Assembly: GCF_002162355.1 (NCBI RefSeq)
Contig: NZ_CP021434.1
Span: forward strand, 2,791,001-2,855,000
Length of the DNA: 64,000 nucleotides
Direction of reading: 5' to 3'
Origin: Tumebacillus avium
Lineage (GTDB): Bacteria > Bacillota > Bacilli > Tumebacillales > Tumebacillaceae
Shown: piece by piece, positions 29,286 to 53,176 of the stretch
How positions within the stretch are numbered: position 1 is the first letter of the stretch
How the letters are laid out: every line of letters starts with the position of its first letter
Notes under the pieces: model-generated
What the model saw: only the letters and a program-made list of their open reading frames with translations
Told to the model about the DNA's origin: nothing
The model's database searches: none
Translations under genes and position numbers: made by a program

Positions 29286-29360
29286 GCGACATGCGACATG
29301 CGACATGCGACATGCGACATGCGACATGCGACATGCGACATGCGACATGCGACATGCGAT
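29286..29360. repeat. Ten-copy 7-bp tandem repeat (GCGACAT)n
   Basis: Ten perfect copies of GCGACAT run from 29286 to 29355, followed by a partial GCGAT. It lies in the convergent gap between the DUF2306 gene and an XRE regulator, so no gene is disrupted. A candidate variable-number locus. Confidence 0.95.
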
Positions 29361-33054: not shown

Positions 33055-33366
33055 ATGGCAGAACGAGACGGCATCCGAAATGCCCTGATGGCAGAGTTTG
33101 AAGCAGCAACCGATGAAAGTTTTACCTATAAGAACCGATGGGGGGACGACAAAGTGGAAGAAAATCAAAATGTGATTGAAAAAGGCCTCGACGCAGCGCG
33201 CCAGGCGGCGCAAGAGGAAGGCATGCAAAACAAGGTGGAAGAGCTGGGCAGCCAGCTGCAGCAAGGCGTGAACACCGGCCGCAAAGACGAAGACGGCAAC
33301 GGCCAGCCGCTGGCTGCTGCCCAAGACGGCTTCCGCGCCGATTACGACGACAGCTCCAACGTCTAA
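33055..33366 (+). CDS. Small hydrophilic protein of unknown function (103 aa)
   Basis: AGGAGG lies 7-8 nt before the ATG. Acidic, Gln/Asp/Asn-rich, no membrane segment or signal peptide; a helical centre (VIEKGLDAARQAAQEEGMQNKVEELG) could form a coiled coil and the C-terminal 35 residues look disordered. It lies 56 bp after splB, so a spore-related role is conceivable but not shown. It ends at a terminator shared with the convergent micro-ORF array. Confidence 0.65.
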   Translation: MAERDGIRNALMAEFEAATDESFTYKNRWGDDKVEENQNVIEKGLDAARQAAQEEGMQNKVEELGSQLQQGVNTGRKDEDGNGQPLAAAQDGFRADYDDSSNV

Positions 33367-33376
33367 GCCAAAACAG

Positions 33377-33409
33377 AAAAAACGCCTTCTCCGAGGAGAA
33401 GGCGTTTTT
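33377..33409. terminator. Bidirectional terminator closing the micro-ORF array
   Basis: ACGCCTTCTCC and GGAGAAGGCGT arms around GA, flanked by A5 and T5. It ends the 33055 gene on one side and the six-ORF array on the other (last stop at 33415). Confidence 0.93.
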
Positions 33410-33414
33410 GTTTC

Positions 33415-33456
33415 TTAGAACTCGATAGTGATGGTGATTTTGATGTTGCGCTCCAT
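33415..33456 (-). CDS. Micro-ORF 1 (MERNIKITITIEF)
   Basis: Thirteen codons and TAA. GGGGTGAC lies 4 nt before the ATG. Uses GAG for both Glu codons and ACT for Thr10. It is the promoter-distal copy, right before the terminator. Confidence 0.8.
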   Translation of the reverse strand: MERNIKITITIEF

Positions 33457-33509
33457 GAATGTCACCCCAATTCTATGATTCAAATTTTAAATCAGGACGG
33501 GAATAAGTT

Positions 33510-33551
33510 CTAGAATTCGATAGTGATGGTGATTTTGATGTTGCGCTCCAT
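33510..33551 (-). CDS. Micro-ORF 2 (MERNIKITITIEF)
   Basis: Same peptide; second Glu is GAA, Thr10 ACT, stop TAG. GGGGTGAC 4 nt before the ATG. Confidence 0.8.
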   Translation of the reverse strand: MERNIKITITIEF

Positions 33552-33603
33552 GAATGTCACCCCAATTCTGTTTTTTAAATTTTAAATCAGGACGGTATAA
33601 GTT

Positions 33604-33645
33604 CTAGAATTCGATGGTGATGGTGATTTTGATGTTGCGTTCCAT
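33604..33645 (-). CDS. Micro-ORF 3 (MERNIKITITIEF)
   Basis: Same peptide; both Glu codons GAA, Thr10 ACC, stop TAG. GGGGGTGAC 4 nt before the ATG. Confidence 0.8.
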   Translation of the reverse strand: MERNIKITITIEF

Positions 33646-33694
33646 GAATGTCACCCCCGGTCGTTTATTTATGTTAAATCAGGACGGTTAGGTT

Positions 33695-33736
33695 CTAGAA
33701 TTCGATGGTGATGGTGATTTTGATGTTGCGCTCCAT
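33695..33736 (-). CDS. Micro-ORF 4 (MERNIKITITIEF)
   Basis: Same peptide; Glu2 GAG, Glu12 GAA, Thr10 ACC, stop TAG. GGGGGTGAC 4 nt before the ATG. Confidence 0.8.
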   Translation of the reverse strand: MERNIKITITIEF

Positions 33737-33785
33737 GAATGTCACCCCCGGCAAGTTATTTTATTTAAACCCCGGTAATTAAGGA

Positions 33786-33827
33786 TTAGAATTCGATGGT
33801 GATGGTGATTTTGATGTTACGTTCCAT
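33786..33827 (-). CDS. Micro-ORF 5 (MERNIKITITIEF)
   Basis: Same peptide; Glu2 GAA, Arg3 CGT instead of CGC, stop TAA. The ribosome site is GGGGTGAAAATTC: one extra base compared with other copies, which puts the GTG out of frame and supports the ATG as the true start. Confidence 0.8.
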   Translation of the reverse strand: MERNIKITITIEF

Positions 33828-33886
33828 GAATTTTCACCCCTTAGCCCCATATTTCGTTTCTTTTTTTAGAATGCTTTGAATTAGTT

Positions 33887-33928
33887 CTAGAATTCGATGG
33901 TGATGGTGATTTTGATGTTGCGCTCCAT
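33887..33928 (-). CDS. Micro-ORF 6 (MERNIKITITIEF)
   Basis: Promoter-proximal copy, same peptide, stop TAG. Ribosome site AAGGGGGTG 6 nt before the ATG; the leader sequence differs from the other five (CCACAC instead of ACATTC). Confidence 0.8.
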   Translation of the reverse strand: MERNIKITITIEF

Positions 33929-33978
33929 GTGTGGCACCCCCTTACATGTTAAGCTGTCTCGTAAGTGTTAACCTGCTG

Positions 33979-34047
33979 TTGACTACATTCTGGCATGAAA
34001 ATAGTTTAAACGCAAGTATTTTCTGAAAAATTTATTTGCGTTATAAT
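33979..34047. promoter_or_regulatory. Divergent promoter region between the micro-ORF array and the MFS gene
   Basis: Minus strand: TTGCGT (34015-34010), 17-nt spacer, CAGAAT (33992-33987) for the array. Plus strand: TTGACT (33979-33984), 17-nt spacer, TAGTTT (34002-34007), and a further TATAAT at 34042-34047, for the MFS gene. Inverted half-sites AACGCAA (34009-34015) and TTGCGTT (34036-34042) overlap the array -35 and the MFS -10. The overlapping layout suggests joint control. Confidence 0.4.
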
Positions 34048-34137
34048 AGTTTCATAGTCAAGGCGGTAGTAAATAACTTTAACGTACATCGAGTAAAGTG
34101 AAAATTCTGACTAAAAATGATTCTAAAGAGGGGACTT

Positions 34138-35397
34138 ATGATGGCTAACGTACAAACCAACACTTCGCTGCCCGAACCCAAACCGATGGGTTACAAAGAG
34201 TTACTTTCGATCCGTCATTATCTTTATCTATTAGGAGCACAGTTTGTCTCTGATTTAGGAGAAGGGGTTTATCGGCTGGCCTTGGCCTGGGCGATGCTGC
34301 AGATGACCGGATCGGCGTTGATGATGTCCACCGTGCTGGTGGCGCAGATGGTGCCGGCGATCATCTTTGGGATCTTTGCCGGGGTCATGGTCGACCGGGG
34401 GAACAAGCGCAAGTATATGCTGCAAGCCGACTTTTACCGGGGACTGGTCGTGGCGGCCGTCGTGGCCTTGTGGTATCTGGAGTGGCTGCAGCCGTGGATG
34501 CTGATCGTGGCTTCGGTGATCCTCGCTTCCTTTACGGCGTTCTTTACGCCGGCCCGCTCGGTGGCGGTGCGCTTTCTGGTGCCGGATCACGCGCTGATGC
34601 AGGCGAAGTCGCTGTCCTCCTCGACCAATACGATCGTCTCGCTGGTCGCTCCGGCGCTGGGCGGACTGCTGGTCGCTATCGATATGGGGCTGGCGTTTCT
34701 GGTCAACGCGGTGACGTTTTTCCTGTCGCTGCTCCTGATCTCCTTGATTCGCAACGAAGAGCTGACCAAGGTCGTCGAAGGCAAACTGAACTTCGCAATC
34801 TTTAAGAAAAGCCTGCAAGAAGGCTACAAGACGATCATGGGCAATCCAACTTTGAAATCGCTGGTCTATTATGTGGTGCTGCTCAACCTCTTGCTGGCGC
34901 CAAGCGGTGTTTTGATTCCGATGTATGCGTTTCAGGTGTCCGACATGGGCGCGACCGGCTTGGCCGTGTTTGAGATCACCTATTTTGCCGGGGTGCTGCT
35001 CGGGTCGATCGCCCTTGGCTACCTGACGCGCTGGCCGAAGATCGCGCTGGTCATCACGGGGATCGTGCTTTTGCTGGTGGCGTTCCTGGCGCTGGCGTTT
35101 GTGGAGAACTTCTACATCGCAACGGTGCTGATGCTGGTGCTGGGTCTGGGCACACCGATGACCAACGTGCCGCTGTCAACGATGTTCGCATTGAAAGTGC
35201 CGCGCGAACTGCTGGGGCGCGCGTCGAGTGCGATCGGGATTTTGACGATGACGTCCGCACCGCTGGCCTTGTCCTTGTCCGGGTCGGTGCTGGCGATGGT
35301 GTCGATCAGCGAGTTCTTCATGTACATCAGCGGATTTGGCCTGCTGCTCGTCGTGATGATGCTGCTCAATCCGGTGATTCGCAAATCGGAAGCGTAA
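34138..35397 (+). CDS. MFS transporter (enterobactin/macrolide exporter-like)
   Basis: 419 residues from the ATG at 34138 (GAGGGG 4 nt upstream; the next ATG at 34141 is equally possible). Twelve hydrophobic segments. N-terminal FVSDLGEGVYRLALAWAML, the motif-A-like GIFAGVMVDRGNKRKYMLQADFYRG and FFTPARSVAVRFLVP are typical of the MFS_3/Mef/EntS-like group. It faces the micro-ORF array across a shared promoter region, so it may export the peptide or protect against it; this is inference. Confidence 0.85.
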   Translation: MMANVQTNTSLPEPKPMGYKELLSIRHYLYLLGAQFVSDLGEGVYRLALAWAMLQMTGSALMMSTVLVAQMVPAIIFGIFAGVMVDRGNKRKYMLQADFYRGLVVAAVVALWYLEWLQPWMLIVASVILASFTAFFTPARSVAVRFLVPDHALMQAKSLSSSTNTIVSLVAPALGGLLVAIDMGLAFLVNAVTFFLSLLLISLIRNEELTKVVEGKLNFAIFKKSLQEGYKTIMGNPTLKSLVYYVVLLNLLLAPSGVLIPMYAFQVSDMGATGLAVFEITYFAGVLLGSIALGYLTRWPKIALVITGIVLLLVAFLALAFVENFYIATVLMLVLGLGTPMTNVPLSTMFALKVPRELLGRASSAIGILTMTSAPLALSLSGSVLAMVSISEFFMYISGFGLLLVVMMLLNPVIRKSEA

Positions 35398-35500: not shown

Positions 35501-36667
35501 GTGGGAAAAGTGTTGATGACAGCTTTAACGATCCTCTTGGCGGCCGGAGCGGCCGGATGCAGCGCAAACGGCGCGCCGAATCCGAACACGCAGATCAAGA
35601 CGCCTGACGTGGTGAAGAATCCGCCGCAGCAGGAGCAAGAGCCGGAAGCGGTGACCACGCAGGCGACGGTGGCGGCGATCGGAGATATTTTGATTCACTC
35701 GTCTTTGTACAAAGATGCGCAGACGGCAAATGGCGGCTATGATTTCCGCTATCAGTTTGAGCTGGTCAAGCCGTATCTGCTCAAGCCGGACCTGGCGATC
35801 GCCAACCAGGAGACGATGATCGGCGGCGTGGAGGTCGGCTTGTCCGATTATCCGATGTTCAACTCGCCGCAGGAAGTGGGCGATGCGCTGAAAGATGCCG
35901 GGATCGACGTGGTGTCGATCGCGAACAACCACTCGCTCGATGCGGGGGAGGCGGGGATTCGCAGCGCCTTGCAGCATTGGAATGAGCTGGGGATTCCTTA
36001 TGTCGGGGTCTATGCCTCGCCCGAAGACCAGCAGCAGATTCGCGTGGTCGAGAAAAACGGGATTACGTTTGCGATCTTGTCGTACACGTACGGAACAAAC
36101 GGGATTCCGGTGCCGGAAGGAAAAGACTATCTGGTCAACCTGATCGACCCGGAGCAGATGAAAGCGGCCGTGCGGGAAGCGAAAAAGCAGGCCGACGTGG
36201 TGATCATGAACCTGCATACGGGCAATGAGTATCAGCGCCAGCCAAGCGATGAGCAAAAAGCTTTGGTGCGGGAGATGACCAAAGAAGGCGTCGACATCGT
36301 GCTGGGGCATCATCCGCATGTGCTGCAGCCGGTGGAGTGGATCGACAATGGTGATGGGCGTAAGTCGTTTGTGGTCTATTCCCTGGGCAATTTCATCTCC
36401 GGACAAGATGAGATTTACCGCGAGATCGGCGGCATTTTGGAGCTGGACGTGGAGAAGGTGACCCAAGGCGACGAAAAGACGATCACCTTGAAAAATCCGG
36501 CCTTCCTGCCGGTCTGGACGCACAAGCGCAACTGGCGCCAATACAAAGTGTATCCGCTCGCCGAGGTGACTCCCGAACAGCTGCCGAAAAGCAAGGAGCT
36601 CTACGAGGAGATCAACACCCACATGAAGCAATGGGTGCCGGAGCTGAAGAATACGCTCCCTAAGTAA
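35501..36667 (+). CDS. CapA-family lipoprotein (PGA-capsule-type metallophosphoesterase fold)
   Basis: 388 residues, GTG start with AAAAGGAG about 10 nt upstream. Lipobox AAGC (Cys21) after a short hydrophobic stretch, then a Pro/Gln-rich linker. The catalytic-domain motifs are those of CapA: AAIGDILIHSSLY, AIANQETMIGG, SIANNHSLDAG, IMNLHTGNEY and VLGHHPHVLQPVEW. CapA homologues act in poly-gamma-glutamate capsule assembly, but no capBC genes are adjacent, so the role here is open. Confidence 0.88.
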   Translation: MGKVLMTALTILLAAGAAGCSANGAPNPNTQIKTPDVVKNPPQQEQEPEAVTTQATVAAIGDILIHSSLYKDAQTANGGYDFRYQFELVKPYLLKPDLAIANQETMIGGVEVGLSDYPMFNSPQEVGDALKDAGIDVVSIANNHSLDAGEAGIRSALQHWNELGIPYVGVYASPEDQQQIRVVEKNGITFAILSYTYGTNGIPVPEGKDYLVNLIDPEQMKAAVREAKKQADVVIMNLHTGNEYQRQPSDEQKALVREMTKEGVDIVLGHHPHVLQPVEWIDNGDGRKSFVVYSLGNFISGQDEIYREIGGILELDVEKVTQGDEKTITLKNPAFLPVWTHKRNWRQYKVYPLAEVTPEQLPKSKELYEEINTHMKQWVPELKNTLPK

Positions 36668-51415: not shown

Positions 51416-53176
51416 ATGGCAACATTTCAAGAGCTGAATATACGAGAAGACATCATGAAATCCCTGGAAGAAATGGGTTTTGAGCAAGCGACCCCGATCC
51501 AAACGGAAACGATTCCGATCGCCCTCGCAGGGGACGACGTAATTGGTCAGGCACAAACGGGTACGGGTAAAACCGCAGCCTTTGTCATCCCGACCTTGTC
51601 GCGGATCGATATGGATAAAAAAGCGATTCAGGTGCTGGTCATGGCCCCGACTCGCGAGCTTGCGATCCAAGTATCGGAAGAGACTTCCCGACTTGGCAAG
51701 TACTCCCGCGTAAACGTTGTGCCGGTCTATGGCGGTCAACCGATCGACCGTCAGATCAAAGCGCTGAAGCGCAACCCGCAGATGATCATCGGTACGCCGG
51801 GACGTCTGCTCGACCACATCCGCCGCAAGACGGTCAACCTGAGCGAAGTACAGGTTGTCATCTTGGACGAAGCGGATGAAATGCTCGACATGGGCTTCCT
51901 CGAGGACATCGAATCGATCCTCGCAGAGATCCCGACCCAGCGCCAGACCCTGCTGTTCTCGGCGACCATGCCGGACCCGATCCGCCGTCTGGCGGAGCGC
52001 TTCATGCACTCCCCGAAAGTGGTGAAGATCCAACCGCAAGGCGTGACTGCGCCGAAGATTGCGCAGATCTACTATGAAGTCGCAGAGAAAAACAAAGTTG
52101 ATGCGCTGACTCGTCTGCTCGATGTTGAGTCCCCGGAGCTTGGCGTCATCTTCTGCCGCACCAAAAAAGGCGTAGACGAGCTGCAGCGCGTCCTGCAGAG
52201 CCGCGGCTACCTGGCAGCTGGTCTGCACGGCGACATGACCCAGCGTGAACGCGACCAGGTCATGCACACCTTCCGTCAGAGCACGATCGACCTGTTGATC
52301 GCAACCGACGTTGCGGCACGCGGTCTCGACGTCGAAGGCGTCACCCACGTCTTCAACTATGACATCCCGCAGGACGTCGACTCCTACGTCCACCGCATCG
52401 GCCGTACGGGCCGTGCTGGCCGTGAAGGCAAGGCGCTGACCCTGATCACCCCGCGTGAGTTCAAACTCCTGCGCATGATCGAGACGGCGATTGGCAAGCG
52501 CATCCACAAGTCCTTGCTGCCGACTTTGATGGAGCTCAAAGAACGCCAACAAGCGCGCATCATGGAAAAGCTGCTCGGTGAGATCGAAGAGACCGGTACT
52601 TCGCAATTTGAAGAACTGGCATCCGAACTGCTCGCACAGCACAACTCCGTAGCGGTGCTGGCAGCAGCGCTCAAGATCATCGGCGATGACCTCGTCGGCG
52701 ATCAAGAGCTGTCCTCCATCGACATGAGCTTGTCCGAAGTCGTCGACTTCTCCAAGCGCTTCCGTGAACAGCGCGGCACCACCGGCGGAGGCGGCGGCTA
52801 CGGCAACCGCGGCGGAGGCGGCGGTTACGGCAATCGTGGCGGAGGCGGCGGCTACCGTGGCGGCGGTGATCGTCGCAGCGGCGGCGGCGGTTACAAAAAA
52901 GGCCCGGGCGGCGGCGGTGGCGGTTACAGCAAAGACCGTCGTGCTTCCGGCGGTGGTACCGGTACCGGTACCGGCGGCAGCAGCTACGGCAACCGTGAAG
53001 GCGGCGGCTACGGTGAAAAGCGTGGCGGCGGTTACGGCGAGAAGCGCAGCGGCGGCTACGGCAACCGTGAAGGCGGCGGCTACGGCAACCGTGAAGGCGG
53101 CGGTTACGGCAACCGTGAAGGCAACCGCGAAGGCAGCCGTGACGGTGGCGGCGGACGTCGTCGCACCCACTTCTAA
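51416..53176 (+). CDS. DEAD-box ATP-dependent RNA helicase (CshA-like)
   Basis: 586 residues. Q-motif GFEQATPIQTETIP, motif I AQTGTGKT, Ia PTRELA, Ib TPGRLLD, II DEAD, III SAT, V ATDVAARGLDV, VI HRIGRTGRAGR. From about residue 454 the protein becomes a 130-residue Gly/Tyr/Arg-rich tail with GGGYGNR and GGGYGEKR units, an RGG-like RNA-binding region. CshA-type enzymes unwind RNA in cold adaptation, mRNA decay and ribosome assembly. AGGAGG precedes the ATG, and a leader hairpin may regulate it. Confidence 0.93.
   Translation: MATFQELNIREDIMKSLEEMGFEQATPIQTETIPIALAGDDVIGQAQTGTGKTAAFVIPTLSRIDMDKKAIQVLVMAPTRELAIQVSEETSRLGKYSRVNVVPVYGGQPIDRQIKALKRNPQMIIGTPGRLLDHIRRKTVNLSEVQVVILDEADEMLDMGFLEDIESILAEIPTQRQTLLFSATMPDPIRRLAERFMHSPKVVKIQPQGVTAPKIAQIYYEVAEKNKVDALTRLLDVESPELGVIFCRTKKGVDELQRVLQSRGYLAAGLHGDMTQRERDQVMHTFRQSTIDLLIATDVAARGLDVEGVTHVFNYDIPQDVDSYVHRIGRTGRAGREGKALTLITPREFKLLRMIETAIGKRIHKSLLPTLMELKERQQARIMEKLLGEIEETGTSQFEELASELLAQHNSVAVLAAALKIIGDDLVGDQELSSIDMSLSEVVDFSKRFREQRGTTGGGGGYGNRGGGGGYGNRGGGGGYRGGGDRRSGGGGYKKGPGGGGGGYSKDRRASGGGTGTGTGGSSYGNREGGGYGEKRGGGYGEKRSGGYGNREGGGYGNREGGGYGNREGNREGSRDGGGGRRRTHF

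Follow-up and report, generated by a model that had tools for sequence, protein, structure and literature searches.

Ultrasmall leaderless ORFs with strong ribosome sites, overlooked by annotation, are known from the LCP/SIP systems of Streptococcus and other Firmicutes, as described in excerpts of one account (PMC10518010). According to these excerpts, LCPs consist mostly of 8-10 hydrophobic residues, with longer exceptions, and their gene lies beside that of a RopB-type receptor (PMC10518010). The array of micro-ORFs analysed here resembles those systems in the size of its ORFs, their lack of a leader and their ribosome sites. It differs from them in having 6-19 copies that code for peptides of 13-15 residues, including E, R, N, K and T, and in that no receptor gene adjoins it, the flanks being an MFS gene, a gene for a protein of 103 aa and splB.

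The PSMα operon of Staphylococcus also encodes tandem short leaderless amphipathic peptides, which have been linked to amyloid. Phenol-soluble modulins are α-helical, have distinct sequences and are longer than 13-15 residues. In our array, too, a single operon holds a tandem series of genes for short amphipathic peptides without leaders, a functional likeness for which no homology is claimed. In contrast to the modulins, its peptides are near-identical, 13-15 residues long and β-patterned, with a β moment of 0.59-1.01 vs an α moment of 0.07-0.19 in 10 of 10 distinct peptides.

The alternation of polar and nonpolar residues, with opposite charges at the two ends, is shared with the designed peptides of the FKFE type, Q11 and RADA16. 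However, those are synthetic and have no N-terminal MERN, whereas the array peptide is genome-encoded. The combination of many major units and a variant that might nucleate is also reminiscent of curli of the CsgA/CsgB type, but the array repeats are separate cistrons rather than repeats within one chain, and there is no exported repeat protein.

In the window, i.e. the whole stretch of 64,000 nt of Tumebacillus avium DNA that was analysed, positions 33415-33928 of the minus strand hold six ORFs of 42 nt, each encoding MERNIKITITIEF (13 residues; Table 1), with start-to-start distances of 101, 91, 91, 94 and 95 nt. Genes of thirteen codons are far under annotation limits, and a peptide system of this kind would be too small for gene finders. 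As for copy 1, GGGG(G)TG ribosome sites are found 6-7 nt before the ATG of copies 2-6. Five sites vary among the ORFs, namely the third positions of the Glu2, Arg3, Thr10 and Glu12 codons and the stop codon (TAA/TAG). By simulation, the probability that 5/5 random changes are silent is ~4e-4 to 8e-4, the range reflecting the transition bias assumed. Mean identity within the array is 0.95 for the ORFs vs 0.62 for the spacers, the latter computed after trimming the 20 nt ahead of each ATG, which contain the ribosome site; copies 5 and 6 have similar spacers, though, with 94% identity over the 85-nt unit. The first-pass annotation of the window had reported six minus-strand ORFs with a period of 91-101, a single peptide, a GGGGTG-type ribosome site for each ORF, silent differences confined to these five sites and more strongly diverged spacers, all of which our analysis reproduced. 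With copies partly homogenised and just five variable sites, the case for selection that can be made from the window only is modest. No further copies beyond the six were found in the whole source genome by a DNA search with one unit.

Table 1. Coordinates of the array and of its putative control elements in the window
Feature	Position	Strand	Description
Micro-ORF copy 1	33887..33928	-	MERNIKITITIEF; ATG at 33928, stop TAG
Micro-ORF copy 2	33786..33827	-	MERNIKITITIEF; ATG at 33827, stop TAA
Micro-ORF copy 3	33695..33736	-	MERNIKITITIEF; ATG at 33736, stop TAG
Micro-ORF copy 4	33604..33645	-	MERNIKITITIEF; ATG at 33645, stop TAG
Micro-ORF copy 5	33510..33551	-	MERNIKITITIEF; ATG at 33551, stop TAG
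Micro-ORF copy 6	33415..33456	-	MERNIKITITIEF; ATG at 33456, stop TAA
Ribosome site of copy 1, GGGGGTG	33935..33941	-	From the sequence
Upstream block kept in all three genomes	33942..34055 (limits approximate)	-	From the alignment; presumed promoter and 5' leader
Candidate sigma-A promoter, TTGCGT-17 nt-CAGAAT	33987..34015	-	By eye; conserved in the alignment
CodY-like box	34017..34031	.	2 mismatches to AATTTTCWGAAAATT; directly upstream of the candidate -35
Terminator hairpin, 14 pairs	33378..33409	both strands scored	Serves the array and probably also the convergent 103-aa gene

Arrays occur at the same locus in the two other members of the genus that were compared, with nine ORFs in G001 and 19 in G002; together with the six of the window's own genome (G000), this makes 34. 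The count for G001 is at least nine, since an N run inside its array has space for one more ORF. The DNA search, run on the window's own genome and 60 relatives (61 in all), yielded array matches in these three and in none of the 58 others. The ORFs of G001 encode MERNIKITVTIEF (four), MERNIKITITIEF (two), MERNVKITITIEF (two) and, in last position, MERNWSIGITITFEF. Those of G002 encode MERNGVKITVTIEF (ten), MERNGVKISITVEF (three), MERNKVTITVTIEF (one) and MRNKVTITVTIEF (three), followed by MERNWYIGIGITFEF and MERNWYIGITVTIPF as the last two. The ten distinct peptides are 13-15 residues long and have diverged yet remain similar across the arrays (MERN[IV]KIT[IV]TIEF, MERNGVKITVTIEF and MERNKVTITVTIEF), and 15-residue variants of the form MERNWxIG... 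close both sister arrays. In G002, the last two ORFs are preceded by a spacer of 143 nt that may be the site of a decayed unit. This gap contains, after a G-rich stretch, an extra short ORF, MISIQILNYSDFY (L017 4308-4349), which represents either unrelated sequence or a decayed unit.

Only three ORF lengths (42, 45 and 48 nt) are found among the 34 ORFs, and length changes are therefore by whole codons. In contrast, the spacers (44, 48, 49, 50, 52, 53 and 59 nt, plus 143 and 149) and the gap between GGTG and ATG (6, 7 or 8 nt over the 34 ORFs) are variable, which indicates that the frame is kept downstream but not upstream of the ATG. MERN opens 31 of the 34 ORFs, and EF closes 33 of them. The first three copies of G002, all of which encode MERNGVKISITVEF from diverged DNA, differ at eight sites, and 8/8 are silent, for which the probability by chance is ~5e-6 or less (200,000 simulations per setting). 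The comparison of substitution ratios over the arrays of several genomes, proposed in the first-pass annotation, gave a pooled pN/pS of ~0.12 both between species and within, in a set of 18 distinct aligned ORFs whose pairs are not independent and from which duplicates, the three MRN ORFs and the three 15-mers were left out. Between G000 and G002, mean identity is 0.73 for ORFs vs 0.49 for spacers, with 0.48 for random 30-mers.

The whole-codon lengths, the pN/pS of ~0.12 and the silent-only differences thus identify the peptide as the selected product, as had been proposed from the window. We regard it as almost certain that the peptide is translated and selected, and we consider this selection to be provable from the sequence alone by virtue of the many copies and the three species. 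Gene conversion limited to the ORFs had been put forward as the alternative. It or recent tandem duplication does contribute, as the G002 array shows runs of near-identical units, but this leaves the conservation across diverged copies and species unexplained. Because of these runs, we take it that recent tandem duplication or gene conversion is also at work in the array.

The 14-pair hairpin bears out the strong terminator that had been claimed for the array end. As this terminator comes right after the last copy and the gene past it (33055-33366, 103 aa) is convergent with the array, the transcript has no other coding content. With a conserved upstream block, one terminator and only micro-genes, the array is, judging from this layout, a stand-alone operon. 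A bacterial operon can be made solely of the repeats of one micro-gene, and the papers searched offered no precedent for this.

The gene order common to the genomes is M42 peptidase, DUF212, splB, 103-aa gene, array, MFS and PGA_cap, the stretch fetched for G001 covering only parts of the outer genes. The 103-aa gene belongs to no Pfam family, and its sole NCBIfam match is below threshold. Within the order, 9 of the 14 genomes searched contain it; it adjoins splB in both the genus and the sister genus, and its product is possibly a spore protein. In G002, the MFS gene is broken, with fragments in three frames (L017 1729-2299), and splB is cut to its last 27 residues (L017 4956-5036), with no splB match in a whole-genome search at E 1e-20. 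The longest array, with 19 ORFs, sits in this genome with ruined MFS and splB genes; neither gene is needed for what maintains the array. We therefore rejected the idea that the system requires export through the adjacent MFS protein or a connection with splB. The loss of spore photoproduct lyase from G002 is unusual for a presumed spore former. The same genome has a tandem repeat, SSQVFSSLLK, downstream of its PGA_cap gene (L017 76-226, approximate limits).

Strong conservation in 3/3 genomes, including G002 with its broken MFS, marks the ~110 bp that precede copy 1. A plausible promoter had been named in the first-pass annotation; the candidate found by eye is conserved and has a TG one base ahead of its -10, but its hexamers score below the threshold of the promoter scan. 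The scan of 33300-34300 on both strands lists eight other promoter-like sites, vs 2.2 expected; the array itself contains such sites on each strand, three of the eight being on the strand opposite to the ORFs. A look by eye for sporulation sigma promoters gave none that was convincing.

The CodY-like box has 2 mismatches to the consensus in the window, 3 in G001 and 2 in G002, and 9, 169 and 29 of 3000 shuffles of the upstream region of each, respectively, were as good. It is the sole window site at <=2 mismatches (0.135 expected per shuffled window); at <=3 mismatches, two window sites were found vs 1.19 expected, i.e. no excess. Three sites in the genome have <=1 mismatch, the array's box not being among them, and the ORFs beside two of these three resemble peptidases by reading. 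Each of the three genus genomes encodes 2 CodY homologues above the Pfam cut-off (L089-L094), and the helix RSVIVNA[IL]RKLESAG is kept in all five that were translated (six exist). The second homologue of each genome is divergent, with ~130 vs 200 bits. CodY control of the array is a prediction: rich medium would keep the operon silent, and a shortage of amino acids, as cells approach stationary phase or sporulation, would open it.

All ten distinct peptides are leaderless and have a net charge of -1 to +1, and in all of them nonpolar and polar residues alternate after MERN. The observed β moment was matched by 0.2-1.1% of shuffled cores. In each of the five distinct window ORFs, codon choice tends weakly towards that of ribosomal-protein genes, as judged against a rough reference (+ strand ORFs of one 20-kb stretch, chosen by length), and background draws matched this tendency in 2-18% of cases. 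Amphipathic peptides that alternate in this manner, (FKFE)2 being one, readily give amyloid-like fibrils, according to an excerpt of the literature (PMC13063417).

We tentatively favour an operon whose many micro-gene copies mass-produce a self-assembling β-peptide and which is predicted to be derepressed at nutrient limitation, a reading that we hold to be plausible rather than probable. A single promoter would give a polycistronic mRNA of tandem 13-codon genes. Each repetition of the strong ribosome site and cistron would multiply the peptide made per transcript, and copy numbers of 6, >=9 (i.e. at least nine) and 19 would tune the dose. We infer that dosage is the most economical reading, a repeated cistron with strong ribosome sites making much of a small strand. 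The leaderless peptides would pair as alternating strands, with an I/V/I/F face against a K/T/T/E face, and K early and E late would provide opposite end charges that suit antiparallel pairing. The amphipathic β-strand MERNIKITITIEF is thus predicted to self-assemble into sheet-like fibres. The Trp-containing 15-mers that close both sister arrays may be minor subunits, perhaps nucleators; their presence in one or two copies at array ends is as expected of such subunits.

If β-assembly is true, few genetically encoded self-assembling blocks would be as small as these peptides, and their dose would be set by copy number. More doubtful is the specific proposal that the ladder of 6-19 cistrons is a genome-encoded minimal amyloid, in which the free 13-residue β-strand would be the whole block, the Trp 15-mers would nucleate as minor subunits and fibre output would follow copy number, which would grow and shrink by recombination. 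Such an amyloid would represent a natural equivalent of the ionic self-complementary peptides designed in the laboratory. The β pattern of the peptides would suit docking to a partner protein equally. No ABC exporter genes adjoin the array and, as no export system is linked to it, an extracellular fibre would have no obvious route.

Among the functions listed in the first-pass annotation (signal, RiPP precursor, toxin or structural peptide), we place a structural, self-assembling role first and a signal second, whereas the evidence speaks against a linked RiPP system and against a hydrophobic toxin. In the main rival reading, which we judge unlikely, the peptide is a leaderless signal that exits, is re-imported and switches a cytosolic receptor, the copies raising its level. 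Leaderless short ORFs with strong ribosome sites do signal in Firmicutes, according to the excerpts on the LCP class (PMC10518010), and the predicted nutrient-linked control would fit. However, the neighbours of the array are MFS, splB and a 103-aa gene without Pfam family, whereas the same excerpts place LCPs beside a RopB-type receptor (PMC10518010). In addition, G002 co-encodes at least five different peptides, which is odd for one signal, and the array peptides bear charged residues, unlike the typical LCP. Two small HTH proteins of 139 and 90 aa are encoded 3-4 kb from the array, but they are presumably too short for a RopB. Less likely still is an antimicrobial or cannibalism peptide, which would be secreted, made at starvation and act on neighbours. 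A multicopy, leaderless, amphipathic peptide under predicted starvation control could answer this description, but membrane-active peptides are usually cationic, which a net charge of -1 to +1 does not match. Moreover, the operon has no immunity gene, and its sole adjacent transporter is broken in G002.

We assign a low probability to the RNA itself being the product, either as a sponge whose recurring AUGGA/SD motifs would titrate CsrA or the anti-SD, or as a translation sink. GGGGGUG and AUGGA motifs do recur in one transcript; yet variation is silent only, lengths change by whole codons, conservation extends to the last codon, and three G002 units without GGA after AUG still keep the ORF. 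Nor was a consensus RNA structure found for the array, whose folding is no better than that of shuffles (z -1.36; 12/100 shuffles as good). That the peptides are RiPP precursors modified by enzymes encoded elsewhere is less probable again. Short multicopy precursors with Thr and Glu residues that could be cross-linked would suit such a pathway, but the peptides have no leader region, and the only radical SAM among the flanking products scanned is spore photoproduct lyase, which is nearly gone in G002. The PGA_cap protein (35501-36667) is far under the cut-off of the lasso-peptide epimerase model (62 vs 700 bits). The three promoter-like opposite-strand sites inside the array would fit an array of type I toxins under antisense-RNA repression, the least probable of these readings and a very improbable one. 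The 13-15 residues hold no hydrophobic membrane-spanning stretch, as <=11 residues follow MERN and alternate with polar ones; furthermore, the units form a single operon instead of being separately controlled, and their copy number reaches 19 in G002.

A profile of the peptides was run against overlapping genome samples at three taxonomic ranks, namely order (14 genomes), class (398) and phylum (398). Five genomes of the order matched at E up to 1, i.e. the three genus members and two at E ~0.5, with matches that fall inside long frames. The class search returned the three genus members only, and the phylum search three genomes, i.e. the window's own and two at E ~0.02. The four weak matches (E 0.02-0.6) were rejected, as none has an ATG start or MERN opening a short ORF; two of them are embedded in frames of 484 and 1285 residues. 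In four genomes of the sister genus, splB and the 103-aa gene are present but have no adjacent ORFs of this type. A two-copy pattern, blind to arrays without MERN, found 2 stretches, neither of them an array, in 84,980 species genomes, a collection that may omit records near the window. In viral contigs, it found 10 stretches, none with both matches as such short peptides. Phage and plasmid collections gave no match by distant blastn, and Rfam gave 0 matches in the window. Within the genomes sampled, the array thus appears restricted to a single genus, of which three genomes were compared. The open-licence papers searched contained no account of small peptides of Tumebacillus, of repeated short ORFs for one peptide or of these peptides. 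The array provides a recipe for finding others, i.e. tandem in-frame micro-ORFs with silent-only variation.

Other tandem repeats were noted in the window. The heptamer GCGACAT forms a perfect tandem of 10.6 copies at 29286-29359, on the 3' side of a DUF2306 gene; as its period is 7, length changes shift any frame through it. Finally, coding-looking Gly-rich tandem repeats with periods of 27, 24 and 12 are present at 52783-53152.
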